From contig NZ_JAGSXH010000032.1 in assembly GCF_018283645.1 (NCBI RefSeq), forward strand, positions 1 to 55,425: a DNA stretch of 55,425 nt, read 5' to 3'. Both the position numbers and the translations under genes were made by a program. The stretch is from Actinocrinis puniceicyclus. Its GTDB lineage: Bacteria; Actinomycetota; Actinomycetes; Streptomycetales; Catenulisporaceae. Numbering within the stretch: the first letter of the stretch is position 1; the number at the start of each line of letters is the position of its first letter. The notes under the pieces were generated by a model. The model was given only the letters and a program-made list of their open reading frames with translations, did not search any database and had not been told where the DNA came from. Shown here one piece after another: positions 3,001-36,893 of this stretch.

Positions 3001-6000
3001 TGTGTCGCCCGCATCGCCCGCGTTACCTGTGTCGGCCGCGTTACCTGCGTCGTTCGGCTCCTCGACGGCGACCCACCCGAGCCGCAGCAGCGCCTCCCGC
3101 CCGGCCCGATCCGGCGAGCGCAACTGCTCGACCGCGATCGGCCGCACCGCCAGCGACCGCACCGACACCACCGGCCGGCCCGCCTCGTCCGTCAGCGCCA
3201 GGCGCAGCGCACCGCCCGCGAGCCCGGACATCTCGACGCGCACCGCATCGACCCCCCGCGCGTGCCGGACCACACCGCCCCAGGAGAAAGGCAGCCGCAC
3301 CAGGCCCGTGGCGTCGCCGGACGAGGCGAGCAGCAGCGGATGCAGCGCGGCGTCCAGCAGCGCCGGGTGCACGCCAAAGCCGGAGGCGTCCGCGTCCTGC
3401 GGGAGCCGGACCTCGGCGAACAGCGTGTCGCCCGCGCGCCAGGCCGCCGTCACGCCCTGGAACATCGGCCCGTACTCGTATCCGCGGTCGGCCAGAACGT
3501 CGTAGAGGTCTTCCACGCCCAGCGCGACGGCCTCGCGCGGCGGCCAATGCTCCGCCGCGACCGCACCGGCCACCGCGTCATCATCGTTCTCTGCGATGCC
3601 AATGGTGCCCGTGGCGTGCCGGATCCAGTCGCTCTCGCCTTCCCCGGCTCGCGCGTGCACGGACACCGAGCGCCGGCCCGTTTCGTCCTCGGGGCCGACG
3701 AGAACCTGGACCCGGACTTCGCCCTGCTCCCCGGACGGGTCCGGCAGGATCAGCGGCGTGTGCAGCGTCAGTTCGTCCACCTCGTCGCACCCGACGCGTT
3801 CGGCGGCCTCCAAAGCCAGGTCCAGGAATGCCGTACCGGGCAGCAGCACGCAGCCCGCCACCGCGTGATCGGCCAGCCACGGCAGCGCCTGCCGGGAGAG
3901 CCGGCCGGTCAACACGACCCGCTGCCCGTCCGCCAGGTCCACCAGCGCGTCGAGCACGCCATGCGCCACCGGCTCCAGACCGAGATCCGCCGCGTTCGCC
4001 GTCGGGGCCGCGTCCAGCCAGTACGAACGGTGCTGGAACGGGTACGTGGGCAGATCGATGCGGCGTCCGCCCGGCAGCAGCGCGGTCCAGTCCACCGGCC
4101 GACCGTTCACGTGCAGCGCGGCCACCGCGCTCAGGAACCGGCGCCGATCATCCCCCCGCCGCCGCAGCGTGCCGGTGACTACCGCGTCCCGCACCGTCTC
4201 CTCGATGCTCGGCACCAGGATCGGATGCGGGCTGGCCTCAACGAACGTGCCGAAGCCGTCCGCCTGAAGCGCGCGCACCGTCTGCTCGAACAGCACGGTC
4301 TCGCGCAGGTTCTCATACCAGTACTGCGGCGTGAGCGTCGCGGTGTCGACAGGCGCGGCGCGCACCGTCGAGTAGAAGGCGATCTCGGCTGTGCGCGGCT
4401 CGATGCCCGCCAGCTGCTGCATCAGTTCCTCGCGCAGGGCCTCGACGTGGCGCGAGTGCGAGGCGTACTCCACCGCGATCCGCCGTGCCCTGATTCCCTC
4501 CTGCTTCACCGCCGCGAGCAGTTCGTCCAGGGCGTCGCGGTCCCCGGAGACGACGCTCGCCGCCGGACTGTTGACGGTGGCGACGCTCAGCCGGCCGTCC
4601 CAGGCTTCCAGCCGCCGCCGCGTCTCGTCTGCCGGCAGCGCCACCGAGACCATGCCGCCGGCTCCCGCCAGCCGGCCGAGCAGCCGGCTGCGCAGCGCCA
4701 CGATCCGCGCGGCATCGTCCAGCGACAGCGCGCCGGCCACGCACGCCGCCGCGATCTCGCCCTGCGAGTGCCCGATGACCGCGTCCGGCCGGACACCGGC
4801 CGACTCCCACAGCCGCGCCAGCGACACCATCACCGCGAACAGGACCGGCTGCACGACGTCGTCCCGGTCGAACCCGGGAGCCCCGGGCTCCTGCCGCAGG
4901 ACGCCGAGCAGCGACCAGTCGATGTGCGGAGCCAGAGCCGCGGCGCAGGCCTCGATCCGCTCGGCGAACACCGGGCAGGTGTCCAGCAGCCCGACGGCCA
5001 TGCCAGGCCACTGCGAACCCTGCCCGGGGAAGACGAACGCGGTCCGGCCGCCGTCGCCCGCGACCGCGGCCACGACGTCGGCCGAAGGCTCCCCGGCGCA
5101 CAGCGCCCGCAACGCGCCGCTGAACTCGTCCCGGGACTGCGCGACGAGCACGGCGCGGCGGTCGAACACCGAACGGGTCGTCGCCAGCGAATAGCCGATG
5201 TCAGCCAGCGCGACCCGCGGATCCGCGGCCACCGCGGCAAGTCGCGCGGCCTGCGCCTGGAGGGCGGTCTCGGACTTGGCCGAGATGACCCAGGGCATGG
5301 CGATCCCCGGCCCGCCGGCATCCCACGGCGTGTCAGAGCTCTGGCCATGAGCCGTGTCAGGGCTCTCCATCTGCTCGGCGCCGCGCGCGGCGACCGGCTC
5401 GGCGCCGGGCGCCTGCTCCACGATGACGTGCGCGTTCGTTCCGGAGATCCCGAACGAGGAGACCCCGGCGCGGCGCGGGTGGCCGTTCGCCTCCCACGGC
5501 ACCGCCTCGGTCAGCAGCCGCACACTCCCCTCGGACCAGTCGACGTGCGGCGTCGGCTCGGCGGCGTGCAGCGTCGCCGGAAGCAGCCCGTTGCGCAGCG
5601 CCATCACCATCTTGATGACACCCGCGACGCCGGCCGCCGCCTGGGTGTGCCCGATGTTCGACTTCAGCGATCCCAGCCACAGCGGGCGCTCGCCGGCGTG
5701 CCCGGGGCCGTAGGCGGCGATCAGCGCCTGCGCCTCGATCGGATCGCCGAGCGTGGTGCCGGTGCCGTGTGCCTCGACCGCGTCGACGTCGCACGGTTCC
5801 AGTCCCGCCGAGGCCAGCGCCTGCCGGATCACCTGCTGCTGCGAGGGCCCGTTCGGCGCGGTCAGCCCGTTGCTCGCGCCGTCCTGATTCACCGCCGAGC
5901 CGCGCACCACCGCCAGCACCGGGTGCCCCTCGCGCAGCGCGTCGGAGAGCCGCTCGACCACGAGCACGCCCGCCCCCTCGCCCCAGCCCGCGCCGTCGGC

Positions 6001-9000
6001 GCCGGCCGAGAAGGACTTGCAGCGGCCGTCGACGGCCAGGCCGCGCTGGCGGCTGAAGGCCACGAAGATCCCCGGCGTGGCCATCACCGTCACGCCCCCG
6101 GTCAGCGCCAGGTCGCATTCGCCGGTGCGTAGCGCCTGGCAGGCCAGGTGCAGCGCGACCAGCGAGGAGGAGCACGCGGTGTCGACGGTGATCGCCGGGC
6201 CCTCCAAGCCCAGCAGGTAGGACAGCCGGCCGGAGGCCACGCTGCCGCGGCTTGAGGTGGCGAAGTAGCCTTCGAGCCCGGCGGAGGGCCGCTCCAGCAG
6301 CCGGTTGCCGTACTCGTCGTACATCACGCCGGCGAACACGCCGGTGCGGCTGCCGCGCAGCGCCGCCGGGTCGATCCCGGCGCGCTCCAGCGCCTCCCAC
6401 GCGGTCTCCAGCAGCAGCCGCTGCTGCGGGTCGGTGGCGAGTGCCTCGCGCGGGCTCATCCCGAAGAACTCGGCGTCGAACCGGTCCGCATCGGTCAGGA
6501 AACCGCCGCTGCGGGTGTAGACCTTGCCCGGCTTGTCAGGGTCCGGATCGTAGAGCCCGGCCAGGTCCCAGCCCCGGTTCGCAGGGAACGGGCCGATCGC
6601 GTCCCCGGCGGCGGCCACGAGCCGCCACAGGTCCTCCGGCGAGGCGACCCCGCCGGGGAAACGGCAGCCCATGCCGACGATCGCGATCGGCTCGTCCTGC
6701 GCGGCGCGGGCGACGGCCGTCACCGGGGCGCGCCCGCCGTCGCGGCCGAGCAGCCGGTCGCGGATGCAGGCGGCCAGTGCGGCGGGGGTCGGGTAGTCGA
6801 ACACGAGCGTGGTCGGCAGCCGCAGACCCGTGGCCGCACCGAGCCGGTCGCGCAGATCGACCGCGGTCAGCGAGTCGAAACCGAGCTCGGTGAACGGGAT
6901 GAGCGGGGCGAGGGTGCGGCCGTCGGCGTGCCCGAGGACGATCGCGACCTCGGACCGGACCAGATCGAGGGTCAGCCGGTCCCGATCCGCCGGGGCAGCC
7001 GCCGCGATGCGCCTGACCCACGCGTTCGAGCCCTGTGTATTCGCACCCTGGGATACTGCCACGGTCGAGGCGGCGGCTCGCCGCGCGGGCGCCTTGACCA
7101 GCGCGCGCAGCATCGGCGGCACCGCGGCGTTCCGGGCGCGGGACCGCAGCGCGGCCGGGTTCAGCAGCGCGGTCACCGTGATCGGCTCGCCGGCGCGGCA
7201 GGCGGCGTCGAAGAGCTCCAGTGCCTGCTCGGCGGTCATCGCCTCCAGACCGGAGCGTGCCATCCGCGCGCGGTCCGCGTCGTCCATGTGGCCGGTCATC
7301 CCGCTCGCGTCCCCCCACAGGCCCCAGGCCAGCGAGGTCGCGGGCAGGCCGAGCGCGTGCCGGTGGCAGGCCAAGGCATCAAGGTACGCATTCGCTGCCG
7401 CGTAGTCGCCCTGCCCGGCGCCGCCGAGGATGCCGACCACCGAGGAGAACAGGACGAATGCGCGCAGCGGGAGGTGCCGGGTCAGCTCGTGCAGGTGCCA
7501 TGCCGCGTCGACCTTCGGCGGCAGCACCCGGTCCAGTTGCCGCGCGGTGAGGGAGGTGATGGTGCCGTCGTCGAGCACACCAGCCGTGTGGATGACCGCT
7601 GTCAGCGGCGCTTCGGCGGGCACGGCGTCGATGAGGGCGGCCAGCGCCTCGCGCCGCGTCACGTCGCAGGACTCGAATCTTATGTGTGCGCCGAGGTGCG
7701 TGAGCTGCGCTGCCAGCGTTGTGGCGCCTTCCGCGTCCGCGCCGCGCCGCGAGGCCATGATCAGGTGCCTGACGCCGTAGCTGGTGACGAGGTGCCTGGC
7801 CAGGATGGCGCCGAGGGTTCCCGCGCCGGTGATCAGGACGGTGCCCTCGGGGCTGAACCTCGGCGCGCCGGTGTCGTCCGCGCCGGTGTCGTCCGCGGCG
7901 GCCGTGTCGGCGGCCCGCGTCGCGAGGCGCGGCACGCGGACGGCGCCGTCACGCAGCGCAAGCTGCGTCTCGCCGGACGCCAGGGCGGCGGCCGGGATCT
8001 GCGGCGCGCCGGACAGTTCGTCGACGTCGAGCAGGATGAAGCTGTCCGGGTTCTCGGTCTGCGCGGTGCGCACCAGACCCCAGATCGCGCCGCCGGCCAG
8101 GTCGGGCACGCCTTCGCCGGGCGTCGTGGCGATCGCACCCCGCGTGACGAGCACGAGCTTCGACTCCGCGAAGCGGTCCTCGGCGAGCCAGCTCTGCACG
8201 ATCCCGAGCGCCCGCGCCGTCGCGGCGCGCACCGCCTCGGGAGAGGCTTCGAGCGGCGAGGAAACGCTGGCATACACGTACCGCGGCGCGGGAGCGTCGC
8301 TGTGGCAGACCTCGTCGACGTCGACGAGGACGGCGGGAGTCGGATCGCCGAGCGCCAAAGCGGTCCAGTCGATGCCCAGCGCGCCCTGCTTCCTGCGCGC
8401 GGCCGACAGCTGCCCGGCGGCGACCGGCCGCAGCGCCAGCGACTCGACCGTGAGCACGGCCGTGCCCTCGGCGTCGACCAGGGCCAGCGACACGGTGTCC
8501 CGGCCGGTGATCCGGGCCCGCAAAGCGGCCGCGCCGGTGGCGTGCAGCCGCACGCCGCTCCACGTGAAGGGCAGCAGCATCGACCCCTCGGCATCGCGGC
8601 CCACGACGGGATGCAGCGCCGCGTCCAGCAGCGCGGGATGAATGCCGAAACGCTCGGCGCCGGGCGCCGGCTCGCCGGCCAGGCCCAGCTCCGCGAACCA
8701 GCCGTCAGAGTCCTGCCACAAGGCCTGCACGCCCTGGAACGCCGGGCCGTAACCGTAGCCCTTCGCGGCGAGGCGGTCGTAGAGCCCGTCGACATCGACC
8801 GCCTCGGCGCCGGCCGGCGGCCACTGCGCGTCGAACGCGGCCTCACCGGCATGGGCGGCGGCACCGGTATCGGCGCCGCCGCCGGCCGCGTTCGTCGGGC
8901 CGAGCAACCCTTCGGCGTTGCGCGTCCACGGGCCCGGGACGTCCGCAGGCCGAGAGTGGAAGGAGGCGGTCCGCCGCCCCGCCTCGTCACCCGCGCCGAC

Positions 9001-12000
9001 ACAGATCTGAAGCTGAACGGCGCCGTCGGCGGGAAGAAGCATGGGCGCGTGGACGGTCAGCTCCTCGACGCCGTCGCACCCGGCGCGGTCGGCGGCCTGG
9101 AGCGCCAGCTCCACGAACCCGGTCCCGGGAAGCAGCACCGTGTCCTCGACGGCATGGTCAGCCAGCCAAGGGTGCGTGCGGACGGAAAGCCGCGCGGTAT
9201 GCACGACAGCCTGCCCGTCGGCGAGCTCCAGCGACGCCCCGAGCAGCGGGTGCGCGGGCGCTTCGAGCCCGGCCGCCGTCACGTCCCCGGACGCCGGGGC
9301 GTCGAGCCAGAACCGCCGCCGCTGGAACGGATACGTCGGCAGGTCGACGGCGGCGGCCGGGTATCCGCCGACCACGCCAGGCCAGTCGACGGCGGTGCCG
9401 TGCACATAGAGCTGCGCGGCGCAGTTCAGAACCGCCTGCCACCCGCCGTCGTCCCGGCGCAGGGTGCCGACGACGACCGGTGCGCGCTGCGCGTCGGCCA
9501 GCGTGTCCTGGAGCGCGCCGCCCAGGATCGGATGCGGGCTGACCTCGACGAAGGCGCCGTGCCCGGCCTCCCACGCGGTCCTGGCGGCCTGGCCGAACAG
9601 CACCGTCTGCCGCAGGTTGCGGTACCAGTACTCGGCGTCCATGACGGCGGTGTCGATGCGGTCGCCGGTGACGGTCGAGAAGAACGCGGTATCGCAGGAC
9701 CGTGGTTCGATGCCCGCCAGTGCTTCGAGGACGTGCTCGCGGATCGCCTCGACATGGGCGCCGTGCGAGGCGTAGTCGACCGCGATTCTGCGTGCCCTGA
9801 TCCGGTCGGCTTCGAAGCGTTCGAGCATCTCGTCGAGCGCGTCGCGGTCCCCGGAGACGACCGTGGCCGCCGGGCCGTTGACGGCCGCGATGCCAAGCCG
9901 TCCGCTCCACGCGGCCAGCCGCCGCGTCACCTCGGCGGCGGGCAGCGCGACCGAGGCCATGGCGCCGATCCCGGTGATCCGCGCGAGCGCCTTGCTGCGC
10001 AGCGCGACCACGCGGGCCGCGTCCGGCAGGCTGAGCGCCCCGGCGACGTACGCCGCCGCGATCTCGCCCTGCGAGTGCCCGATGACGGCGTCCGGGCGCA
10101 CGCCGAGCGAGCGCCAGAGCGCCGCCAGCGAGACCATGACCGCGAACAGCGCCGGCTGGATCACCTCGTCGCGCTCCAGGACGGGTGCGTCCGGCGCGCC
10201 GCGCAGCACGTCGAGCAGCGAGAAGTCCACGTGCGCGGCCAGAGCGTCGGCGCACATCGCGACGTGCCGCGCGAATACCGGCGACTCGTCGAGGAGCTGT
10301 GCCGCCATGCCGGCCCACTGCGAACCCTGGCCGGGGAATACGAACACCGTCTTACCCGGCGGTTGCGCCGTCCCGCGCGCGCCGTACGCCGCGGCCCCGC
10401 CCTCACTCAGCGCCCGAAGACCCGCCTCGAAGTCGCAGGGCTCGGAGCCGACGATCACCGCGCGGTGGTCGAAGGCGGCGCGCGTCGTGGCCAGTGCCCG
10501 GGCGATCGCGTCGACCCGCACGGCGGGCTCGGCCCGGACCAGGCCCAGCAGCCGGTCCGCCGCGGCCGTCAGCGCGGCCTCGTCCTTGGCGGTGAGGATC
10601 CACGGGACGGCGACGGCCGCAGCGGGCGTCGGCGCGGCCGGCAGCGGCGGCTGCTCGGCCTCGTCGAGCTCGACCTGCTCAAGGATCACATGCGCGTTGG
10701 TCCCGGAGATCCCGAACGACGAGACTGCGGCGCGCCGCGCACGCCCGTTCTCCGGCCACGGCACGGCATCCCGCAGCAGCGAGACGGCACCCGCCGACCA
10801 GTCGACGTGCGGCGAGGGCTCGTCGATGCCGAGAGTGCCGGGCAGCAGGCCGGCCCGCAGCGCCATCACCATCTTGATCACGCCGCCGACACCCGCGGCG
10901 GCCTGCGCGTGCCCGATGTTCGACTTCAGCGATCCGAGCCACAGCGGCCGCCCCGGATCGCGCCCGGGGCCGTAGGCGGCGATCAGCGCCTCGGCCTCGA
11001 TCGGGTCGCCGAGCTCGGTCCCGGTGCCGTGCGCCTCCACCGCGTCGACCTCGGCCGGCTCCAGGCCCGCCGACGCCAGCGCATCACGGATGACCCGCTC
11101 CTGCGACGGGCCGTTGGGCGCGGTCAGCCCGTTGCTCGCGCCGTCCTGGTTGACCGCGCTGCCGCGGATCACGGCGAGCACCCGGTGGCCGCGGCGCCTG
11201 GCGTCCGAGAGCCGCTCGACCAGCAGCATGCCCACGCCCTCGGCCCACGCGGTGCCGTCCGCCGCCGCCGCGAACGGCTTGCACCGCCCGTCGGGGGCCA
11301 GCCCGCGCTGGCGGCTGAACTCCACGAACATACCCGGCGTGGCCATCACGCTCGCGCCGCCGGCCAGCGCCAGGTCGCACTCGCCGTACCGCAGCGCCTG
11401 ACAGGCCAGGTGCAGCGCCACCAGCGACGAGGAGCACGCCGTGTCGACGGTGACCGCGGGCCCCTCCAGCCCGAGCGTGTAGGCGATCCGGCCGGAGATG
11501 ACGCTCGTGGTGTGGCCGGTCAGCAGGTATCCCTCGAACCCGTCGGCCGCCTCGTGCAGCCGCGGCCCGTACTCCTGCGCCATGGCGCCCGCGAACACGC
11601 CGGTGCGGGTGCCGCGCAGCGTTCCCGGGTCGATGCCGGCGCGCTCCAGCGACTCCCACGCCGTCTCCAGCAGCAGCCGCTGCTGCGGCTCCATGGCGGC
11701 GGCCTCGCGCGGGCTGATGCCGAAGAACGCGGCGTCGAAACGGTCCGCGTCGTACAGGAAGCCGCCCTCGCGCGCGTACGTGCGCCCCGGCTTGCCCGGC
11801 TCGGGATCGTAGAGCCCGTCCAGATCCCAGCCGCGGTTGGCCGGGAAGGGACCGATGGCGTCGCGGCCCTCGGCCACCAGCCGCCACAACTCCTCCGGCG
11901 TGGCCACCTCGCCGGGGAACCGGCAGGCCATCGCGACGATCGCGATCGGCTCGCCGTCGTGGGCGCCGCGCGAGGCCGCGAGGGGCGCCGGGTCCGGCTC

Positions 12001-15000
12001 GCCGCCCGGCGTACCGGCCAGCCGCTCGCGTAGATGCCGCACCAGCGCGGCCGGGGTCGGGAAGTTGAACAGCAGGCCCGCGCCGAGGCTCAGACCGGTC
12101 GCCGCGCGAAGCCGGTCGCGCAGCTCGACCGAGGCGAGCGAGTCGAACCCGAGGCTCTTGAAGGAACGCGCCTCGTCCACGGTGTCCGGCGTGACGTGGC
12201 CCAGCACGATCGCCACGGTGGTGCGCACGAGCTCGGCGAGGCGGGCGTCGAGCCCGGCGGGGGAAAGGCCCGACCACTGCGCGCCCGGCAGTCCGCAGGC
12301 CGCCGACGTGTCCTCAGTGTCCTGATCCGCAGCGCCTGCTCCTGCGGGCAGCGCCGCGCGCGCCGCGGACGCCGCGGCGTCCGCGGTCAGCCAGTGGCTC
12401 TGGCGCTGGAAGGGGTAGGTCGGCAGCGGCACCCGGCGCGCGCCGGTTCCCGCGAACACCGTTTCCCAGTCCACTGCGACGCCCGCGGTGTGCAGTTGCG
12501 CCAGCGACGAGGCGAACCGCGCCCAGCCGCCCTCGCCCCGGCGCAGCGTGCCGAGCGCGACCGGCCGCGCGTCCGTCGGCTCGGCGCCGTCGAGCGTGTC
12601 GCGCAGCGCTGAGATCAGGACCGGGTGCGCGCTCACTTCGAGGAAGACGGTGAATCCGTCCTGCGCCAGCGCGCGCGTCGTGGCTTCCATTTGCACCGGC
12701 TCACGCAGGTTGCGGTACCAGTAACCTGCGTCGAGGCGGTCGGTGAGCGGCCCCGCGGTGACCGTGGAGTAGAACGCCGTGCGCGGTTCGCGGGCGTCGA
12801 CCTCGCCGAAGGCGTTGAGCAGGCCGTCGCGGATCTGTTCGACGTGCGGGGAGTGGGACGCGTAGTTGACCTGAACCATGCGTGCCTTGACATCCCGCTG
12901 CGCCAGGTGCGCGATCAGATCGTGCGCCGCCTCCGGGACGCCCGCGACGACCGTCGAGAACGGGCTGTTGTAGACGGCGATGCACAGCGCGCCCTGCCAG
13001 CGGGGGATCAGGGTACGGACTTCATCGGCGGGCAGCGGGATCGAGACCATGACGCCGCCGTGCGCCAAGGTCGCCAGCATCCGGCTGCGCTCGACCACGA
13101 TGCGCGCCGCCTCGTCCATGCTCAGCGCGCCGCTGACGCAGGCGGCCGCGATCTCGCCCTGCGAGTGGCCGGTCACCGCGTCGGGGTGGACGCCGAGGCT
13201 CTCCCAGTACCCGGCCAGCGCGACCATCACGGCGAACAGCACCGGCTGGGTGACCTCGTCGCCGTCCAGGTCCGGCGCGCCGGGTTCGCCGCGCAGCACG
13301 CCGAGCACGGACCAGTGCGTGTGGTGCTCCACCGCCGCAGCGGCGGCGTGCAGCAGGCCGCGGAAGACCGGCGAATCGTCGAACAGTTCCAGCGCCATGC
13401 CGCTCCACTGCGCCCCCTGGCCGGGGAACACGAAGACGACCTTGGGCTCCTCCAGCGCCCGGCCGGCCACCGCGTGCGCGGCGTCCTCGCCTCGGGCCAG
13501 CGCCGCCAGACCGCTCAGTGCTTCCTGCCGGTCGCCGGCCAGGACGACGGCGCGGTGTTCGAAGGCGGTGCGGGTCGTCGCCAGCGAATATCCGAGGTCG
13601 CACACGGCGGGGCCGGCGTCCTCGTCGGCCGCCGTCGCGGCGATGCGGGCCGCCACGCGTTCGGCCTGGGCCCGCAACGCGGCCGGGGTGCGCCCGGAGA
13701 CCGGCAGGGCGACGAGCCGCGCCGCCGGGCCGCCGGGTTCGGCCACCGTCGCGTCAGCCTCCGTATGCGCCGCCGCCGAAAGCGCCGCGGCCGAAAGCGT
13801 GGCGGCCGGCCGCGGCGACGCCCCGGGCGCGGACCGCGGCGCCTCGCCGACGACGACGTGGCAGTTCGTACCGCCGATCCCGAACGAGCTCACCCCGGCC
13901 AGCAGCGGGCGCTCGGCGTGCGGCCACGCACCGGTTTCCCGTTGCACCCGCAGCCGCAGTCCGTCCAGCGGGATCGCCGGGTTCGGGGTCCGGAAGTGCA
14001 GGCTCGCGGGCAGCTGCCGGTGCCTGACACTGAGCACCGTCTTGAGCAGCCCGACGACGCCCGCGGCGCCCTCCAGGTGGCCGAGGTTCGTCTTGACCGA
14101 GCCGACCGCGAGCGGGTCGCCGGCCGCGCGCCGCGCCCGGAACACCGCGCCGAGCGCCTCGGCCTCGATCGGGTCGCCGACCGGGGTCCCGGTACCGTGC
14201 AGTTCGATGTACTGCACGCGGCCGGGACGGATCGCCGCCTGAGCCAGCGCGTCGCGCACCACCTCGGCCTGAGCGGCCCCGTTCGGCACGACGAGCCCGT
14301 CGCCGCCGCCGGTGCCGTCGTTGTTGACCGCGCTGCCCAGGATCACCGAGTAGATCGGGTCGCCGTCGGCGAGAGCGCCGGCCAGCGGCTTGAGGACCAG
14401 CGCCGCGCCGCCCTCGCCGCGCACGAAGCCGTTGGCGCGCGCGTCGAAGGTGAAGCACCGGCCGTCCGGCGACAGGCCGCCGAACCGTGCCGCACTGACG
14501 GCGCCCTCGGGGATGAGGTTCAGTTGCACGCCGCCGGCGATCGCCAGCGCCGTCTCGCCGCGCCGCAGGCTCTCGCAGGCCATGTGCACGGCCACCAGCG
14601 AGGAGGACTGCGCGGTGTCCACGGTCAGGCTCGGGCCGTGCAGTCCGAAGGTGTAGGAGACGCGGTTGGCGATCAGGCCGCGGCGCACTCCGGTGAAGGA
14701 GTGCCGGCCGATCGCGCCCGGCCCGTGCTGGTAGAGCAGGGTCGCGTAGTCGTCGCCGATCGCGCCGACGAACACGCCGGTGCGGCTGCCGCGCAGCGCC
14801 TCGGCGACCAGCCCGGCGTCCTCCACCGCCTCCCAGCTCAGCTCCAGCATGAGCCGCTGCTGCGGGTCCATCGCGCCGGCCTCGCGCGGCGAGACGCCGA
14901 AGAACCCCGCGTCGAAACCGTCGACCCGGTCCAGGAACGCGCCGTGCCGCGCGGCCAGGCGCACCGGTTCGGGCACGTCGTCGCCGAGCGCGTCCGGATC

Positions 15001-15177
15001 CCAGCGCCCGGCCGGGACCTGGCCCACGGCGTCGACGCCGTCGCGCAGCAGCCGCCAGAACGCGGCGGGGTCCTCGGCCCCGGGCAGCCGGCAGGAAACA
15101 CCGATCACGGCGATCGCGCCGTCGGGCTGCGGGCGCGAAGCGGCGGCCCGAGCGTTGGAGACGCGCTTTCCCGTCAT
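1..15177 (-). CDS. Modular type I polyketide synthase: KSQ loading module, two extension modules, start of a third (3' end outside window)
   Basis: A single reading frame runs from ATG 15177 (AAGGAG about 10 nt upstream) to the left edge, 5059 codons with no stop. Loading module: KS residues ~20-440 with the active-site Cys replaced by Gln190 (DTAQSSS), AT ~580-860 (GHSQGE, YASH), ACP Ser1013. Module 1: KS ~1074-1496 (Cys1248), AT ~1610-1900 (GHSQGE, YASH), DH His2008/Asp2185, KR ~2445-2600 (LDD motif, Tyr2592), ACP Ser2769. Module 2: KS ~2828-3270 (Cys3002), AT ~3383-3670 (YASH), DH His3771/Asp3942, KR (LDD, Tyr4429), ACP Ser4597. Module 3: KS from ~4667 (Cys4840) to the edge. No ER fits between DH and ACP in either module. 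From family knowledge, KSQ decarboxylates the loaded extender, GHSQGE/YASH ATs choose methylmalonyl-CoA, and LDD KRs are B-type. I therefore infer a propionyl starter and two 2-methyl-enoyl extensions. It is the last gene seen in the tetronate operon. Confidence 0.95.
2987..3049. repeat. Three 18-nt imperfect repeats inside the PKS, module 2 DH-KR linker
   Basis: Copies at 2987-3004 and 3014-3031 are identical (TCGCCCGCGTTACCTGTG); a third at 3032-3049 differs at two positions. On the coding strand they give a Gly/Asn/Asp/Ala-rich stretch at about residues 4043-4064, between the DH and KR domains. The period is a multiple of three, so the frame is kept. This looks like replication-slippage expansion of a flexible linker. 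Confidence 0.85.
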
Positions 15178-15312: not shown

Positions 15313-16101
15313 CTACCTGTGGTCGGCGCCCGCCGCGGCCAGGTCGCGGCGCAGCATCGCGAGGAACTGCTGCGGCGGGTCGCGCACGAACAGATGGCCG
15401 CCGGGGACCGTGCGCAGTTCGAAGCCTGAGTCGCCGTGCCGGGCCCAGCCCGCCATGGCGTCGGCGGCGATCAGCGGGTCGCCGTCTCCCGAGTAGGCGA
15501 GGATCGGCCGCGGCAGCGGCTCGCGGCGGCCGACCACGTGGCTGTTGCACAGCTGCAGGTCGTCACGCAGCAGCGCCACCGCCGCGTCGACCCAGTCCGG
15601 GTACTTGAGCAGCATCGGCGACATGCCGCCGGCGTCCAGCAGCCACTGGACGAGCCCGTCGCGCGACAGGTCCTCGGTGCCCGCGGACACCGGCGGCACG
15701 TCCGGCGGATTGCAGGCCCCGACGATGAGTGCCTCGGGCGGCCGCGCTCCCGCGGTGATCCGGGCGTGCACCAGGTTGAAGGAGATCAGGGCGCCCATGG
15801 AGTGCCCGTAGAAGACGTGCGGCGATTCCAGATGCGGGCCGAGCTGCTCGCACAGCACGCGCACCACCTCGCTCATCTCGGTCAGCCGCCCGTCGCGCAC
15901 CCGGCGTTCGCGGCCCGGCAACTGCACCGCAAGCACCGACACCGACGGGCCGAGCGCCTGCTGCCATTCGGCGAACATCGAGGCGCCGCCGCCCGCGTGG
16001 TGCAGGCAGAACAAACGCAGCGGCGCCTTCGGGTCGGGCGCCGCGGTCAGAAACGGCGTCAGCGCCCCGGTCGTGCGGCCGGCTGCGGCGTCCACGGTCA
16101 T
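15313..16101 (-). CDS. Type II thioesterase
   Basis: Alpha/beta-hydrolase of 262 residues of the stand-alone type II thioesterase family, which removes misprimed or stalled acyl groups from PKS carrier domains in the cytoplasm. Visible marks: the N-terminal LFCLHHAGGGAS segment, the nucleophile elbow YGHSMGAL, an Asp in the SGDGDPLI segment and a late His in GGHLF. ATG 16101 follows a GGGGAGA-type ribosome-binding sequence and overlaps the TGA of the upstream hydrolase gene (ATGA, 16098-16101), so the two are translationally coupled. The PKS gene starts 135 bp further on. Length and motifs are normal for the family. Assignment to editing rather than chain release is inferred from its discrete form. 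Confidence 0.93.
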   Translation of the reverse strand: MTVDAAAGRTTGALTPFLTAAPDPKAPLRLFCLHHAGGGASMFAEWQQALGPSVSVLAVQLPGRERRVRDGRLTEMSEVVRVLCEQLGPHLESPHVFYGHSMGALISFNLVHARITAGARPPEALIVGACNPPDVPPVSAGTEDLSRDGLVQWLLDAGGMSPMLLKYPDWVDAAVALLRDDLQLCNSHVVGRREPLPRPILAYSGDGDPLIAADAMAGWARHGDSGFELRTVPGGHLFVRDPPQQFLAMLRRDLAAAGADHR

Positions 16102-17225
16102 CTCCCCGCCCCCCTGACCGCTCGACGCGCTCGCAGGGCCCGCCATACGGCGCCGAGCACCACTCGCTGCGGATTGCGGACCCGGCGCATCCGCAGCACG
16201 GACAGCACCGTCCATATGCGGGTCTCGGTGACGTGGAGCGGCGAGCCGTGCACATCGTCGTTCTCGACCAGACGCAGGTCGGCCAGCCGCTCGCGCAGCA
16301 GCGCCGCCTCCGCGCCCGGGATGATCTCGTCGCGCCGGCTGTTGAGGTAGGCGACCGGGATCCGGATCGCGTCGAGCTGCTCGTCGCTCAGTGCCAGCGG
16401 CGCGAGCCGGCCGGCCAGGTCCCCGGCCGGGTCCCCGGGCCGGGCGCCGGTCAGCCGGGCCAGGGTGTCGGCGGTGATCCGCGGCACCCGGGCCAGCCAG
16501 TCGCGGTCCGTGAAGAACACGCGCACCGGCGCTCCGGCGGTGACGACGCCGCGGATGCGCGGGTCCTCGGCCGCCGCGCGCAGCGCGAGCTGCCCACTGA
16601 AACTCAGAGTATTGGCATAGGTGTGGTGCACGTCGGCGCGGTCCGCCACCGCGTCCAGCAAAGCCGGCAGCATGCGCCAGCTGTCCGCGTCGTAAGGCAG
16701 GGTGTTCTCGCCGACGCCCGGAAGCTCGGCGGCGATCCCGGCCATCCCGAACTTCTCGACCAGCGGCAGGACCGAGGCCCACTGCTCCTTGACGCTGACG
16801 ATGCCGCCCATGATCAGCAGCAGCGGGCGCGGCCGGTGCGCCGACAGGCCCGCCGCCCAGCACCGCAGCGGGCCGACCGAGGTCTCCAGCTCCAGCCGCT
16901 GCACCTGCGGCGCCTTCTGCCGGCACCATTGGCCGAACGCCGCGACGCAGGCCAGAGCGGCACGCTCGCGCGCCGGGCCGTCGGGGTAGGGGAAGCGGGC
17001 CATCGCGTAGTGACGGCAGGCTTCCAGCGCCCGGCCCCGGGCCAGCAGCGCGTCGGCCGCACGGCTCCATTCCCCGGCCCAGCTGCCCTCGCCGTCGCCG
17101 AGGTCGGTGCCGATCCGGTCCAGTATCGCCCGGTAGCCGGGGATGGCCTGCGCGCGGGCGTGCAACTCAATGAACTGCTTCAGCTCCCGCACGTCGTTGA
17201 CGGCCGGGTTCACGGGTGCGCTCAT
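16098..17225 (-). CDS. Alpha/beta hydrolase of the tetronate cassette (Agg5-like, predicted acetate-eliminating enzyme)
   Basis: A 375-residue protein with an all-helical N-terminal third (about 1-110) followed by an alpha/beta-hydrolase core, an FrsA/DUF1100-like layout. The oxyanion-strand region reads LLLIMGGIVSVKEQW, and a late His-Gly (DDVHGSP) could supply the catalytic His. The expected GxSxG elbow reads TLSFSG (residues 206-211), so both flanking glycines are replaced around the presumed nucleophile Ser208. The gene lies directly after the E2-like acyltransferase gene with ATGA overlap (17222-17225). In agglomerin-type clusters a hydrolase in this position removes acetate from the O-acetylated tetronate to make the exocyclic methylene. 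That function is assigned from context and recalled family resemblance, not from a catalytic signature. Confidence 0.8.
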   Translation of the reverse strand: MSAPVNPAVNDVRELKQFIELHARAQAIPGYRAILDRIGTDLGDGEGSWAGEWSRAADALLARGRALEACRHYAMARFPYPDGPARERAALACVAAFGQWCRQKAPQVQRLELETSVGPLRCWAAGLSAHRPRPLLLIMGGIVSVKEQWASVLPLVEKFGMAGIAAELPGVGENTLPYDADSWRMLPALLDAVADRADVHHTYANTLSFSGQLALRAAAEDPRIRGVVTAGAPVRVFFTDRDWLARVPRITADTLARLTGARPGDPAGDLAGRLAPLALSDEQLDAIRIPVAYLNSRRDEIIPGAEAALLRERLADLRLVENDDVHGSPLHVTETRIWTVLSVLRMRRVRNPQRVVLGAVWRALRARRAVRGAGR

Positions 17226-18160
17226 GACCGGCTCGCCGCCTTTTCTGCGCCGGCCGCGGCCGGCTCGCGCGTCGCGGGCGGTGCCGGGTGCCCGGCATCC
17301 GGGACCGCCGGGAAGTTTTCGAGCCCTGTTTTGATCTCGGCGAGCACGTCGGCCGCCTCGGCGCCGTCGATGACCCGGTGGTCGAAGGTCAGCGAGAGGC
17401 GCAGCACCGGCGCGATCACCACCGCCGAGCCGCGCGCGACCGGCCGCTGCGCGATCTGCCCGAGGCCGAGGGTCACCGTCGTGCCGCCGATCGAGTAGAA
17501 CCCGTCGATCGGACGGTGGCCCAGGGAGCTGACGGCGAAGGTGCCCAGCAGCGCGGCGCGGCGGCGCAGCGGTCGCGTCGCCATCCGGGAGAGCAGCCGG
17601 CCGTTCGGCACGGGCAGCTTGTGCAGCATCCGCGCGCCGGCGAACTCCTTGAGTTGCTCGGGATCGCCGTCGCGCAGCCGGTCGACCTGCTGCTGGATCT
17701 CGTCGAGGGAGCAGTTCGCCAGGTCCGGCAGCACGGCGGTGAGCACCACCCGCACTCCGCCGAGCGTCCGGTCGAAGGCGAGCTTGCCGTTCACGGTCCC
17801 GTAGCGGGCGACGCGCGGCCGCAGCCGGCCGCGGATGGCGCCGTTCGCCTCCGGGTGCGCCGCAAGGACGCGGGCGGCGGTGTGCAGCACGTAGCCGGAG
17901 ACCGAATACGAGTGCTGATCCGCGCGTGCCGCGGCCCGGTGTTCCAGGACGGCGCCCATGTCGACCTCGGTGTCGAGGAATACCGGCGCGAAGTCGCGCA
18001 GCCCGGCCAGGAAGTGCAGGGTGTGCCGGCGCTGCCTGGGCAGGGCCCGGATCGTGACGGCGGGCGCGTCGCGCGCGGTGCTCGCCGTGCCCGTGCCCGT
18101 GCCCGTGCCCGTGCCCGAGCTCGTGCTTGTCCTCGTGCTCGCATTGCCCGCGGCGCTCAC
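17222..18160 (-). CDS. 2-oxoacid dehydrogenase E2-type acyltransferase (Agg4-like, tetronate O-acetylation)
   Basis: The protein has 312 residues and holds only the catalytic acyltransferase domain of the dihydrolipoamide acyltransferase family; no lipoyl or E1/E3-binding domain is present. The active-site motif DHRVIDG is intact (His259, Asp263). In tetronate pathways such free-standing E2-like enzymes acetylate the primary hydroxyl of the glycerol-derived tetronate before acetate is eliminated. GTG 18160 overlaps the ACP stop (GTGA, 18157-18160). Residues ~8-26 are a Ser/Thr/Gly tract encoded by a CCGTGC hexanucleotide repeat, probably disordered. The neighbours (ACP before, hydrolase after) fit the agglomerin-type order. 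Confidence 0.9.
   Translation of the reverse strand: MSAAGNASTRTSTSSGTGTGTGTGTASTARDAPAVTIRALPRQRRHTLHFLAGLRDFAPVFLDTEVDMGAVLEHRAAARADQHSYSVSGYVLHTAARVLAAHPEANGAIRGRLRPRVARYGTVNGKLAFDRTLGGVRVVLTAVLPDLANCSLDEIQQQVDRLRDGDPEQLKEFAGARMLHKLPVPNGRLLSRMATRPLRRRAALLGTFAVSSLGHRPIDGFYSIGGTTVTLGLGQIAQRPVARGSAVVIAPVLRLSLTFDHRVIDGAEAADVLAEIKTGLENFPAVPDAGHPAPPATREPAAAGAEKAASRS
18085..18114. repeat. (CCGTGC)5 hexanucleotide repeat in the E2-like gene
   Basis: Five exact head-to-tail copies of CCGTGC. On the coding strand they encode an alternating Gly-Thr tract near the N-terminus. The six-base period keeps the frame, so copy number could change without breaking the gene. Confidence 0.9.
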
Positions 18161-18390
18161 GACGTCACCGCCGCGTAGATCTCGCCGAGGGAGCGGGCCC
18201 GCAACAGCTCGACCATCGGCACGCTGCGCCCGGTCTGCCGCTCCAGCGCGGTCACCAGCCACAGCAGGTGCAGCGAGTCCCAGCCGGCGATCTGGTCCAG
18301 GTCGCGGTCGACGTCCTCGGCGGTCACCGGCAGGCCGAGCCCGTCGGCGATCAGCTGGACGAAGTCGTCCACGGTGGTCACGGTGTTCAC
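18157..18390 (-). CDS. Discrete acyl carrier protein for glyceryl units
   Basis: A 77-residue carrier protein with the phosphopantetheine site GWDSLHLLWLV, preceded by the acidic AEDVDRDLDQIA segment usual for such ACPs. It starts with GTG 18390, with AAGGAGA upstream, overlaps the FkbH stop (GTGA, 18387-18390), and ends overlapping the E2-like gene. Lying between an FkbH-type enzyme and the acyltransferase, it is expected to carry the D-3-phosphoglycerate-derived glyceryl unit, as Agg3-type ACPs do. It is the only free-standing ACP in the left operon. Confidence 0.93.
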   Translation of the reverse strand: MNTVTTVDDFVQLIADGLGLPVTAEDVDRDLDQIAGWDSLHLLWLVTALERQTGRSVPMVELLRARSLGEIYAAVTS

Positions 18391-20354
18391 GAGTGGTCTC
18401 CTTGCGGGCCGTGGTTGCCGTTCTCGGTGGCGGCGCCGGGCAGGTCGCCGAGCGACTCGTCGAGGTGTACGTGATCCGGGGTGCCGACGATCTCGGCGAG
18501 GTCGTGGCGGAACCGTGTGGTGCCGTCCTCGTCCGCCGCGAGCCGGGTGAAGCCGTAACGCGGGTAGAGGTCCTTCACTCCGGAGTTCTTCGCGGTCGGC
18601 CGGTATGCGCCGAACACCGCGGTCGCACCGGTCCGCCGCGCGTGGCGCAGCACCGCGGCCAGGCAGGTCTGCTCGATGCCGCGCGCGAACACCCGGCAGC
18701 TGAGCAGGAAGTTCTCGATGTGCAGCGCGTCCCCGGCGCGGCGCGCGAAGATCGCGCCGACCAGTCCGTTCTCGCCGAAACGGTCGCCGGAGTGGATGGT
18801 GAGCACCAGTTGTGCGGGGTCGCCGGCCAGCGCCCGCACCTCGGCGGGCTGCATGCGGCGCGTGGTCAGATTGAACTGGTTGGTGCGCTGCGTGAGCTGC
18901 GCGACGCGCGGGACGTCCTGGTCGCCCAGCCGGGCGAGGCGGACCCGGACGCCCAGCTCGCGCAGGTAGTCCGCGAGGGAGTCGAAGCTGCGCAGGAAGT
19001 CCTCGCGGGCCAGTTCGTCGGTGTACCTGGCGGCGCGGCCGCGGTCCTCGTCGGTGAGTTCGAGCACGTCGAACCAGCCGTCGGCGAGCAGCCGCTCCAT
19101 GTGCCGCGCGGGTTCGTCGTCCACTGCGACGACGGACACCTGCGGCAGTTCCCGCTCCACCAGGCCGCGCTCGTACGGGCTGTCGTCCACGAACACGATG
19201 CTGTCCACACCGAGGTTGAGCGCCCCGGCCAGTTCGGCGAGGTTCTCGTGCTTGGGCCGCCAGTTGGCGCACACGCGCACGAAGTCCGCTTCGCGCAGCG
19301 TCTGCTGCGGGTGGTCGCGCAGCACCGCGCGCACCGGCTCCACATCGTTCTTGCTGACCGCCGCCAGCAGCACGCCCTGGGACCCGATCTGCTTGACCAC
19401 GCGCTGGAAGGCGCGGAACGCCTCGCCGCGGTAGCCGTCGGCCACCTCGATGCCTTCGGCGCCGTCCTCGCCGAGGATGCCGCCCCACACCGTGCCGTCC
19501 AGGTCCAGCGCCAGGCACTTCTTCGTGCGGCCGGTCAGGTGGCGGGCCAGGTGCGCGACCTCGCGGGCGTAGGCGGCCAGCAACTCAGGGGACAGGTGTG
19601 CCTTCGCGTACACGCTCATCCGCGCGTCCTCGGCCGCGATCCCGCCGGCCAGCAGCGGATCGAGGTCGACGACGATCACGCCGGGCCGCTCGCCGAGCCG
19701 CAGCAGGGCGGCGTTGCCCTCGTGCCAGATCGCGCCGAGCCGGGCCCGGGAGCGGTGGTCGAGCAGTTGCGCGCTGTGGCGGCGCGGCAGCGGCAGGGTG
19801 TTGAGAACCAGGGTGCCGCGGCTGTTGGCCGCGAACGCGGTCGTCAGGCCCTCGACGAGTCGCAGCTTCTCGCCGAAGACCCGCTCGACGTCCTCGGGCC
19901 GCCACGGCGCCGGCACCTCGTCGAACACGATCTGCGGGTCGAGGACGCACAGGGTCAGCCCGGGGCCGGCCGCGTAGAGCGAACTGCCGGGATCACCGAG
20001 GTCGAAGACGTAGCCGTCGAAGTCGGACAGGCGGATCCGCGTCAGCAGGCCGTGCCTGGCCGTGTGCGCGGTCAGCGCGGGGACGAGCGCGGCCAGGGTG
20101 CCGTGCCCGGTGACGGCGATGTCGAGGGTTGCGACGCTCGGGTGCAGCCGGGTGACCTCGTCGGCGGACAGGCGGCTGAGCAGTTGCCCCGCGGCGATCA
20201 GGTCGGCGTCGGACAGGTGCCGCAGCAGGCCGGCGACCAGAGGGTACTGCTGCACGAGGCGTCCGGCGCGATGCAGCGCCACCAGGTCCCAGGATGCGTC
20301 CTGGACCGGGAACGACGCATCGGCGGCGCCGGAGCGGACGGCGGTCATCGGCAT
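18387..20354 (-). CDS. FkbH-like HAD-superfamily enzyme, glyceryl-ACP synthase
   Basis: The FkbH family takes 1,3-bisphosphoglycerate, removes phosphate and loads the glyceryl group on an ACP. An N-terminal region of ~270 residues precedes a HAD domain with LDLDGTVWGG (nucleophile Asp near residue 284), SKND and VDDSPYER motifs. A GNAT-like C-terminal part follows (QRTNQFNLTTRR, then CRVFARGIEQ). I place the start at ATG 20354 because GAAAGG lies 5 nt upstream; ATG 20372 adds six residues but lacks a ribosome-binding sequence. Length is about 655 residues. Next to an ACP, KAS III, E2-like enzyme and hydrolase, this supports tetronate formation. No methoxymalonyl partners (FkbG/FkbI types) are visible. 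Confidence 0.93.
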   Translation of the reverse strand: MPMTAVRSGAADASFPVQDASWDLVALHRAGRLVQQYPLVAGLLRHLSDADLIAAGQLLSRLSADEVTRLHPSVATLDIAVTGHGTLAALVPALTAHTARHGLLTRIRLSDFDGYVFDLGDPGSSLYAAGPGLTLCVLDPQIVFDEVPAPWRPEDVERVFGEKLRLVEGLTTAFAANSRGTLVLNTLPLPRRHSAQLLDHRSRARLGAIWHEGNAALLRLGERPGVIVVDLDPLLAGGIAAEDARMSVYAKAHLSPELLAAYAREVAHLARHLTGRTKKCLALDLDGTVWGGILGEDGAEGIEVADGYRGEAFRAFQRVVKQIGSQGVLLAAVSKNDVEPVRAVLRDHPQQTLREADFVRVCANWRPKHENLAELAGALNLGVDSIVFVDDSPYERGLVERELPQVSVVAVDDEPARHMERLLADGWFDVLELTDEDRGRAARYTDELAREDFLRSFDSLADYLRELGVRVRLARLGDQDVPRVAQLTQRTNQFNLTTRRMQPAEVRALAGDPAQLVLTIHSGDRFGENGLVGAIFARRAGDALHIENFLLSCRVFARGIEQTCLAAVLRHARRTGATAVFGAYRPTAKNSGVKDLYPRYGFTRLAADEDGTTRFRHDLAEIVGTPDHVHLDESLGDLPGAATENGNHGPQGDHS

Positions 20355-20472
20355 CAGGGCCTTTCGGGGCATCGGGATCTGCCGGGAGAGTCAGACGTGC
20401 TCGAAGGCGCGCTGTTCAGGCTTCGCAGTGCTCTTCGGGCTTCGCAGCGATCTTCGGGACGCGCAGCACTCT

Positions 20473-21504
20473 TCACTGCTTTTCGAGCGCGAAGCCCGCC
20501 TTGATCCACTTGCTGGACTCGATCGTCACGCCGACCGCGCGATCGCCCTCGACCATGCGCGGCAGCAGCCGTTCGAGCTGGAAGAAGGGCAGTGCGTTGG
20601 CGGTGTTGCCGGTCTCGGCCACGCAGCTGATCTCGCGCGCGCCGGAGACGCTGAGCCGCTCGGTGATCCGGCGCGTCATCGTCCCGGACAGCTGCGGGGG
20701 CAGCAGGTAGTCGACCTCTGACTTCTTCCAGTCCAGCTCGTCGAGTAGTTCCGCGAACACCTCGTCGGCCATGCCGGGAACGTGCTGCTCGATCGCCTTG
20801 TAGTCCTCGCTTCCGGCGGGCAGGTCGGCGAGCCGGTCGGCCAGGCCGAACCACTCGACGGTCTGCGCCGGCGCCCGGCCCAGGCCGACCAGTCGCACGA
20901 GGGTGCGCCGCAGCACGGCCGAACCGGGGCCCGGCCGCGTCCCGAGCACGGCCGCGCCGGCGCCGTCACCGAACAGCACGACGTTGACCAACTGGCCCGG
21001 CGGCATGGCGGCCAGGTCCAGTCCGACGTCGAGGTGCTTCGCGCACACGTCGCCGCCGATGACCAGTGCGGTGCGGTGGTCCGCGCAGCGCAGCAGCCCT
21101 TCGGCCACCTGCAGCGCCTGCACCGCGCCGGTGCACCCGGATTGCAGCTGGTAGGCCGGGACCTGGTCGATGCCGAGCCGGTCGGCGACCATCGTCACGG
21201 TCGCGGGCATCAGCTTGTCCGGCGTCGCGGTCGCCATCACCAGCAGATCGACGTCCTGCGGGCCGAGGCCCGCGGACCGCAGCGCCTCGGCTCCGGCCTG
21301 CGCGGCGAGATCCGCGAGAGTGGCCGTGGCCTGCCCCGACTCCAGGTCGACGACCAGGTGCCGGCCGCTGGTCCCGACGAAGGCGTCGATCCACTGCTCG
21401 AACGCCGCCGGCATGCCGAACCGCCGCGCCAGCGCGGCGTTGTCGATCTGTGGCCCCGGCAGGACGCCGGATGCCGACAGGACGTGTACTTCGCTGGTAC
21501 CCAT
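20473..21504 (-). CDS. KAS III-like enzyme of tetronate ring formation (Agg1-like)
   Basis: A 343-residue thiolase-fold protein of the FabH type. In tetronate pathways this enzyme joins the polyketide beta-ketoacyl thioester with glyceryl-ACP, forming the C-C and C-O bonds of the ring. The active Cys is present (SGCTGA, Cys124), and so is an Asn in ETGNTAN (Asn300). The place of the usual catalytic His, in the FabH PHQAN motif, reads PPQLS (Pro270), so the Cys-His-Asn triad is incomplete. ATG 21504 follows a strong AGGAGG sequence. The gene begins 31 bp after the beta-barrel gene and ends ~118 bp before the FkbH start; that spacer carries imperfect CTTCGGG/CTTCGCAG repeats. Confidence 0.9.
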   Translation of the reverse strand: MGTSEVHVLSASGVLPGPQIDNAALARRFGMPAAFEQWIDAFVGTSGRHLVVDLESGQATATLADLAAQAGAEALRSAGLGPQDVDLLVMATATPDKLMPATVTMVADRLGIDQVPAYQLQSGCTGAVQALQVAEGLLRCADHRTALVIGGDVCAKHLDVGLDLAAMPPGQLVNVVLFGDGAGAAVLGTRPGPGSAVLRRTLVRLVGLGRAPAQTVEWFGLADRLADLPAGSEDYKAIEQHVPGMADEVFAELLDELDWKKSEVDYLLPPQLSGTMTRRITERLSVSGAREISCVAETGNTANALPFFQLERLLPRMVEGDRAVGVTIESSKWIKAGFALEKQ

Positions 21505-21535: not shown

Positions 21536-22084
21536 TCAGGAGCCCGTGTCGTCGCCGCCGCACAGCACGATCTGCTCCTGCACCGGCCACGGCGCGGTGT
21601 GGCTGGTCATGCGCCACCGCCAGATGCCGTGCTTGCCGGCGTAACCGCCGCTGACACCGTTGATCGGGGCCTCGACCCAGGCGCCGGACAGGATCTCGGT
21701 GCGGTCGTAGACGCCGGTCGAGACGAGCGCGCCATCGGAGAGCTGAAGGGTCTCGGAGATGCTCTCGATGGTGTGGCCCGCCGAGTCGCGCTTGAGGATG
21801 TCCAGATGCCCGGCAGTGCTGCCGACGCTCTGCCCCGAGGCGTCCTGCAACGGATCCAGATATACGGCCATCGCGCCGACGGGCGGATTCGCCGGGTCCG
21901 TGATCGGCTCGTTGGCGTAGATCCGCACCGTCGGCTCGGTGACCTCGATCCGAGTGCAGCCGGGCCGATCAGACGCAGCGGCCGCGGCCGCACTGTGGGG
22001 CGCGGCCGCAGTGACACCGCCGCCGACCGCCGCGACGGCCAGACCCGCGGCCAGCAGCCGCCGCCTCTTGTATCCGGAATTCAC
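21536..22084 (-). CDS. Secreted AbyU-like beta-barrel protein, candidate spirotetronate [4+2] cyclase
   Basis: The gene encodes 182 residues from GTG 22084, with AGGAGGT ~9 nt upstream. Residues 6-37 form a signal peptide: KRRR, a hydrophobic Ala/Gly/Val run, then a poly-Ala cleavage region, possibly Tat type. The mature part looks like an allene-oxide-cyclase/dirigent-type barrel: VGSTAGHL (88-94), LQLSDGALVSTG (113-124), then GVSGGYAGKHG and WRWRM (143-159). From memory this matches the AbyU pattern GTSSG...LSDG...GVSGRY.G..G..QWRM. It has exactly two cysteines, Cys43 and Cys175, at the two ends of the barrel, so a disulfide after export is plausible. It is the first gene of the operon, 31 bp before the KAS III gene. 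The cyclase role is inferred; a secreted, non-enzymatic barrel protein is the alternative. Confidence 0.75.
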   Translation of the reverse strand: MNSGYKRRRLLAAGLAVAAVGGGVTAAAPHSAAAAAASDRPGCTRIEVTEPTVRIYANEPITDPANPPVGAMAVYLDPLQDASGQSVGSTAGHLDILKRDSAGHTIESISETLQLSDGALVSTGVYDRTEILSGAWVEAPINGVSGGYAGKHGIWRWRMTSHTAPWPVQEQIVLCGGDDTGS

Positions 22085-22834
22085 GCTTCCGTACCTCCTA
22101 CGCAGTGGGCTTCGACGCGTGAGTACGCCGACGTCTCGATCCTGGGCGAGCGCTCTTGTGCCGCTCTAAGACACCGCTGAGCCGCGCGCGCCGGCAGGCG
22201 TGCGTCCGCGTACACGTGCGCAGTGCAGACGACTACCGGGGGAGTAGATATGGCGAAACAGGCAGTTCTTGGAGCGAATTGCTCAGCAGCTCGTTCAGCG
22301 CGCGTTTCTTCGTGCGCGCAGGCGCATCCACGCGCCCGGTCGCGGCCTTCTGTACGAGGGCCTCGCCTGCAAATGCCCTGCGTCAGCCCGCGGTCCGCGA
22401 AGGCCCTGTCCGTGCTCGCCGCGGTGGCGGGAGCGCGTCCACGGTCCTGTGCCTGTGACCGAGTGCACCGGGCGTATCAGCCTTATGTCAGTAAGGCTAC
22501 GAACCGGGAGGCGACCGTCATACCCCAAACCTGCCGAGCTTCCGTCTCGCTGGGGCTCAGCGGCGGCGGGATGGGGTGTCCACGCGCCGGTCAGGGGTGC
22601 GGGTGGGCGCCGACTCGGGGTCGGACACCGGGGTACCGGCCGCGCGCCGCCATCCGCGCCGGGCGCCGCCCCGGCGCACCTCGCGCGCTCAGCGGCGCGT
22701 CGATCTTCCCAGGTCCCGGCGCACCGGGGATCACCCCCGCGTGGCCGGCGCGAGCCGGATCGACTCCGCCTCGTTCGAACCTGTGCCGGATCATCAGGTA
22801 TCGGATATGGTGGTTCCGGCGAGCGGGCGGCCGG
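22085..22834. other. Divergent intergenic region between the PKS operon and UbiA gene
   Basis: 750 bp between two outward-facing starts, so it must hold the promoters of the left operon and of the UbiA gene. I find no convincing -35/-10 pair. A GGGGGAG sequence sits 5 nt before an ATG at 22250 that is in frame with the UbiA gene, but the following codons have low third-position GC and the middle section does not read as protein. I treat it as non-coding or a decayed leader. Confidence 0.5.
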
Positions 22835-23773: not shown

Positions 23774-24330
23774 CGACCGCGCTGGAAAACGCCCGCGCAT
23801 CGCGGCGCCGAAATCGCGCACCGGCAGGAAGAGGGCTCTGGCTCGTTCCAGTCCGATGCCGTATGATTGGCCTGGTATCAGTAGGCTGAGCATTTCCGGT
23901 CTACGCCGTCGCAAGTGAAGATCGTTTGTGAATGACCGTGCGGGCGGCGTGCGAAAACGCGGTCGCACGGCTGGGAGTGATGCTCAAGCGATCGGGGATG
24001 CAGAAGCGTTGAGGACGGCGAACCCGCGTTCGGACGGGGCGCACAACCTGTCGCGCCCGATGTCAATGCGCTTGTCTAAACCGCCTGACCTGCAAGTTCG
24101 GGACATCTGACGCGGCATGCGCCATGCCGCCGGTACCTCGGTGTCCGTAGTCTCCTTTTCGTCCCGTCATGGTCCATTTCATCGGCTGATCAAGTGACGA
24201 TCGAAAAAGTTCATTGAATACGGCGGTTGAATCTCGGCGATTTCACGCGATAGGCACAAACACGTGTGAAAATCGGGTATGCGGCTTCACCGGCGAACCG
24301 TTGGTGTGTCGAACGAGGGGACGCAGTTGC
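23774..24330. other. Intergenic region upstream of the sensor kinase
   Basis: 557 bp with lower GC than its surroundings. It contains a good -10-like TATGAT at 23862-23867 but no matching -35 at 17 bp, and TTGAAT at 24227-24232 with TAGGCA 18 bp downstream. I cannot choose a promoter. I see no small gene or clear terminator. Confidence 0.4.
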
Positions 24331-26092: not shown

Positions 26093-26468
26093 GCTCAAGA
26101 CGCGGGTCGCCGAGGTCGCCGAGGTCGCCGGGATCGGCGGCCGGTGATGCAGCGGCTCGGGACTGTTGCGGTATCGTCCCGGTGGTGGGGTGCGGTGTGA
26201 TGGCCACGGCCTGGGCGCCGCCTCGCGCGTCAGACCTCGAATCTCAAGCTTGGACGGCGTTCGGTCCGGTTCGTCGGCGGGGGCCCGATCGCCGGAGGCC
26301 GTCTCCGGCCGATCAGCCGCCGTATCAGACCAGGAATCCGCACCACGCGACCTCTCACCAGCTCGTAGGGGTGTCGGGTGGTGCACCCGGGGTTGTGACC
26401 CCGCCTCGGGCGACCATACGTTCGGCGGGATGCCACAGCACATGATTGACACAGCACGAGGAGGCGGC
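26093..26468. other. Intergenic spacer with short tandem repeat
   Basis: 376 bp. Just after the response-regulator stop, GTCGCCGAG-type nine-base units repeat three times (about 26106-26132). An AGGAGG at 26459-26464 serves the next gene. I see no other gene or clear promoter. Confidence 0.5.
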
Positions 26469-27293: not shown

Positions 27294-27389
27294 CGGGACT
27301 GCGCGGGGCGGGAGGGGTCGTCCGCTGCCGCACCGACTTCGCTATGCTGGCCCGTCGCGCGCCGCGCGTTGATCGGGTGGGAGGGCTCC

Positions 27390-36870: not shown

Positions 36871-36893
36871 ACTCGCGTTCCGCCGTCATGCCG

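Follow-up and report, generated by a model that had tools for sequence, protein, structure and literature searches.

We analyzed a 55,425-nucleotide stretch of DNA from Actinocrinis puniceicyclus (the window), in which a tetronate operon lies on the minus strand. The gene that the initial annotation had placed first in the operon encodes a small AOC_like protein of the AbyU/Cyc15 type (21536..22084, minus strand; 182 amino acids) with a predicted signal peptide. Its stop codon is about 31 bp from the start of the next gene, which encodes a KSIII of the abyA1/RkD type (20473..21504); this is the only RkD-type KSIII in the host genome. There follow, all on the minus strand, genes for an FkbH-type glyceryl transferase/phosphatase of the abyA2 type (18387..20372; TIGR01686, 298 bits), a discrete acyl carrier protein of the abyA3 type (18157..18390; PF00550), an E2-type acyltransferase of the Agg4/abyA4 type (17222..18160, with a provisional start and an open frame extending up to 18262; PF00198), an alpha/beta hydrolase of the Agg5/abyA5 type (16098..17225), a type II thioesterase (15313..16095; PF00975), and a modular polyketide synthase (PKS; 1..15177) that is ended by the contig edge. 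The first six genes match the order abyU-abyA1-A5.

These genes include those expected to make the precursor of a spirotetronate: the neighbors of the cyclase gene are a tetronate cassette and a PKS that would make a diene. The PKS has a KSQ-AT-ACP loading module (KSQ motif DTAQSSS), two KS-AT-DH-KR-ACP modules, and then a KS; because the KSQ loading module is followed by two modules that show DH and KR signatures as well as AT motifs of the YASH type, we predict from these motifs that the chain starts with a terminal, methyl-branched conjugated diene. Exomethylene tetronates are expected from Agg4/Agg5-type pairs, as in the agglomerin and abyssomicin pathways; the Agg5/abyA5-type hydrolase presumably eliminates acetate, which creates the exomethylene. 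Thus, both halves of a Diels-Alder substrate appear to be encoded. We did not recognize an exporter within the window, where the cluster runs off the end of the contig.

Other genes in the window lie beside the operon. A divergent UbiA-type prenyltransferase is encoded at about 22.9-23.8 kb, and the block at 22900-30910 also includes a 3-hydroxyacyl-CoA dehydrogenase, a NarL-type two-component pair, a PptT-type phosphopantetheinyl transferase (28073-29092), and a 2-isopropylmalate-synthase-like protein (29201-30910). Secreted glycoside hydrolases and carbohydrate-binding proteins (34534-48597) separate the operon from a second gene group, with an acyl-AMP ligase and an aminotransferase (48952-55425).

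The start of the cyclase gene seems to be correctly placed. A Shine-Dalgarno sequence (AGGAGG, 22094..22099, minus strand) lies 9 nt 5' of the GTG start codon; a search upstream of the gene for a sigma-70-type promoter found none. We considered whether the N-terminal extension might be due to a start codon that was called too early, but the only other in-frame start falls within the barrel, with 130 codons remaining. No start within the gene would therefore give the whole barrel without the extension, and the extension should belong to any functional product.

The protein is a clear member of Pfam AOC_like (PF18678; E = 2.2e-19, 69.8 bits, with a curated cut-off of 25.9 bits), and its sequence matches in the PDB are Cyc15b, Cyc15, AbnU, AbyU, PyrI4, AbmU, Tsn15, and PloI4. 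The motifs that had suggested AbyU in the first place (KRRRLLAAGLAVAAVGGG..., LSDG, GVSGGYAG, and WRWRM) are all present. In the AlphaFold model, residues 43-175 (21560..21958, minus strand) form the eight-stranded antiparallel barrel of AbyU/Cyc15-type cyclases, mostly with pLDDT above 90. A structural search, which the initial annotation had proposed as a check, placed Cyc15b at the top (Z = 22.2, rmsd of 1.4 over 134 residues; Foldseek E = 3e-12), followed by Cyc15 (Z = 19.7), AbyU and AbnU (about 19), PyrI4 (18.9), and Tsn15 (15.8). Plant dirigent proteins and allene oxide cyclases ranked lower. In a tree with 63 rows, the protein groups with the characterized cyclases: it forms a clade with two proteins from Catenulispora (support of 97/94), and the sister group of that clade is Cyc15/Cyc15b (98/94). 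The proposed resemblance to AbyU was therefore borne out by the profile, the model, the structural search, and the tree alike. The fold, the family, and the expected reaction are of an already known kind, and both the sequence and the model strongly indicate that the gene encodes a spirotetronate [4+2] cyclase of the AbyU/Cyc15 family.

We weighed two other roles for an exported protein with this fold. First, it might catalyze a different pericyclic or ring-forming reaction, in the manner of Tsn15 from tetronasin biosynthesis. Tsn15 has the same barrel and catalyzes a rearrangement rather than spirocyclization (PMC7489565). By alignment, the tryptophan deep in the barrel of AbyU and the glutamate at its head are kept (W124 as W157 and E19 as E50), and the arginine at the barrel head (AbyU R122) is Trp155, which would fit an altered reaction. 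However, by both fold score and sequence the protein is far closer to Cyc15 than to Tsn15, a diene is predicted from the start of the PKS, and we saw no polyether genes in the window, so we give this idea very little credence. Second, the exported barrel might bind or sequester the antibiotic or its precursor, as protection or as a carrier, and not be a catalyst at all. Secreted AOC_like proteins whose role is unassigned do exist outside of tetronate clusters, and two of them (L162, 7534-8079, and L156, about 7254-7844) have the same cysteine pair as the window's protein. These two genes lie beside other modular PKS genes, and there is no tetronate cassette near either of them in the stretch that we read. 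Nevertheless, the nearest kin of the window's protein are proven [4+2] cyclases, its gene leads the abyU-A1-A5 series, and the host genome has no second clear AOC_like protein as a candidate for the cyclase. We consider a role in binding only to be quite improbable. When the protein was used as a single query against 396 genomes from the phylum, it matched itself and otherwise gave weak matches only.

The N-terminus looks like a signal peptide. Residues 1-37 (21974..22084, minus strand) comprise a basic n-region with KRRR (net charge of +4), a hydrophobic core that begins at residue 11 in an uncharged hydrophobic stretch (residues 10-38), and several AxA motifs, and this combination is recognized by our rule-based test. 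RRRLL fits the twin-arginine pattern, and the match to the NCBIfam TAT model is weak and under its cut-off; the related proteins L041 and L042 have no paired arginines. In the AF2 model, residues 1-40 are unfolded, with no helix and a mean pLDDT of 51-54.

Alternatively, the cyclase might act in the cytoplasm or on the inner side of the membrane, and its N-terminus might serve as an anchor that is not cleaved or as a PyrI4-like lid. AbyU, PyrI4, AbmU, and Cyc15 were all assayed as cytoplasmic-type proteins, and in PyrI4 an Ala-rich lid at the N-terminus lies at a comparable distance from the same cysteine. Also, the N-termini of AbnU relatives from Frankia are hydrophobic but lack AxA, and the chain in the solved structure of AbnU begins past that part: it does not include the native hydrophobic N-terminus that is encoded by the frame in L054. 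(The AbnU study describes the enzyme as having no N-terminal lid.) However, most PyrI4-type N-termini have charges of -4 to -7 and a core at residues 30-41, in contrast to the basic start, the core at residue 11, and the AxA motifs of the window's cyclase. As a control, we modeled a PyrI4-type N-terminus with AF2, and it folded into helices with block means of up to 96-97, whereas the cyclase has no such structured helical lid. A lid of the PyrI4 type is thus disfavored, and a cytoplasmic or inner-face enzyme is unlikely overall. Of the earlier proposal of an export signal, KRRR and the hydrophobic stretch hold up, given the sequence features, the start site, the relatives, and the modeling control; export itself is a prediction from the sequence and the model.

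The cysteine pair by itself says little about export. There are indeed just two cysteines, Cys43 (codon at 21956-21958, minus strand) at the start of the first strand and Cys175 (codon at 21560-21562, minus strand) at the end of the last strand, and in the model they are at the outer ends of those strands. Along the sequence of the mature domain they are far apart, one near each end, as the initial annotation described, but probably not in the fold: the first and last strands adjoin in a closed barrel, so the two cysteines should be side by side, and a Cys43-Cys175 disulfide is plausible. All of the signal-bearing tetronate cyclases have this pair at the same aligned positions. However, PyrI4 and its kin carry the same pair without a signal peptide, so the pair is not a specific sign of export, and it supports a structural role instead. 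We also rejected a strict link between the pair and the signal peptide because the PyrI4 type has the pair alone; a phylogenetic pair test had few independent pairs.

We then turned to 80 tetronate loci that were collected by their KSIII, blind to the cyclase. Twenty-seven of these loci carry 30 AOC-like proteins. Signal-type N-termini were found in Catenulispora (L041, L042, and, from a separate search, L144), Streptomyces (L044, L059, L111, and L114), and Actinacidiphila (L100). Like the window's cyclase, these proteins combine a signal peptide with the cysteine pair and have tetronate genes as neighbors, at 25-37% identity; L041 and L042 also share the window's operon order. The rule-based test was positive for 10 of 33 AOC-like proteins, as compared to 1 of 305 neighboring cytosolic tetronate enzymes. 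Signal peptides occur in five branches of the tetronate cyclases (that of the window's protein and four others), and a single clade of signal-bearing cyclases was rejected (AU test, p = 1.3e-5). In one close pair from Catenulispora, dN/dS was 0.18 for the signal region and 0.68 for the barrel, with mostly synonymous changes and few changes overall; we set aside the signal dN/dS of the L111/L114 pair, which had too few changes. In the open papers that we searched, we found no mention of signal peptides on spirotetronate cyclases, so within that literature the predicted export signal is what is new here.

Two other arrangements stood out at these loci. In L054, L063, and L059, two AOC-like genes lie in tandem upstream of the KSIII; only one of the two encodes a hydrophobic N-terminus, and the second gene of each pair is of the AbnU type. 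In each AbyU-type locus examined (L068, L069, L079, L083, L086, L098, L099, L108, L117, L147, L150, L151, L081, and L094), a gene with RHS/YD repeats adjoins the cyclase. The open frame of this gene continues into the cyclase in L099 and L147, which is the reason for names such as "Rhs family protein". We found no RHS/YD-repeat gene beside the signal-bearing cyclases.

The export label on the cyclase and its relatives suggests that the last ring-closing step might occur outside the cytoplasm. Our main reading, to which we give a probability of roughly 55%, is that the window encodes an exported AbyU/Cyc15-family spirotetronate [4+2] cyclase that works outside the membrane, with a linear tetronate as its substrate. 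The PKS, KSIII, FkbH, ACP, Agg4, and Agg5 proteins would build a linear acyl-tetronate in the cytoplasm, with the exocyclic methylene and the conjugated diene at opposite ends. The cyclase would leave via its signal peptide, which would be cut near residues 28-38, and the Cys43-Cys175 disulfide would close the barrel by tying the first strand to the last. A transporter would export the linear precursor; outside the membrane, the barrel would fold it for an intramolecular Diels-Alder reaction, and the ring-closed active product would arise only outside the producer. If so, ring closure would take place beyond the cytoplasm and could serve as self-protection.

Some observations complicate this reading. 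The enzyme might be exported slowly and cyclize its substrate in the cytoplasm before its own departure. Also, the L144 cluster contains a P450 along with an ABC-2 exporter pair, and if the P450 acts after spirocyclization, as AbyV does, then ring closure on the outside would be awkward.

More tentatively, with confidence just short of even, we suggest that spirocyclization moved outside in several tetronate branches, where a disulfide-tied cyclase would convert an exported inactive linear tetronate to the active ring, and that the lid of PyrI4 may be a former signal peptide. In PyrI4 (PDB 5btu), the Ala-rich lid helix at about residues 30-56 aligns with the hydrophobic core of the signal-bearing relatives, and the linker behind it is also similar and leads to the same cysteine, so a signal peptide may have given rise to the lid.

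Spirotetronate cyclases serve as models of Diels-Alderases and have been regarded as cytoplasmic. If this set is exported, then the steps by which these antibiotics are synthesized, exported, and ring-closed need to be put in a new order, the producer would have an evident means of protecting itself, and a Diels-Alderase that is exported, and perhaps tied by a disulfide, would be of use as a biocatalyst.

The closest known systems are Cyc15 (PDB 8of7), which forms a spirotetronate in vitro (PMC10946715), and Cyc15b (PDB 9qp8). These have the same barrel, at 31-35% identity, and form the sister branch, but the solved proteins have no signal peptide, both have the head arginine by alignment, and Cys43 and Cys175 belong to the window's protein. 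AbyU, from abyssomicin C biosynthesis, has the same barrel, conserved W124 and E19, and the same place before abyA1-A5, but it has neither a signal peptide nor the cysteine pair, and its Arg122 is replaced in the window's cyclase. The aby cluster has the gene order abyU-abyA1-A5, and its YD-repeat gene is abyK (PMC3625739). In the AbyU-type loci that we read, the cyclase adjoins the KSIII gene, behind such a gene, which the window's cyclase lacks. PyrI4, from pyrroindomycin biosynthesis, shares the barrel and the N- and C-terminal cysteines, but its acidic N-terminus is folded as a lid, where the window's cyclase has a predicted signal peptide instead. Finally, SfmCy2 (saframycin) and NapU (naphthyridinomycin) are Tat-exported oxidases that carry out the last assembly steps outside the cell, which provides prodrug maturation and self-resistance (PMC11375781); they are unrelated flavoproteins, and their steps are redox reactions, not cycloadditions.
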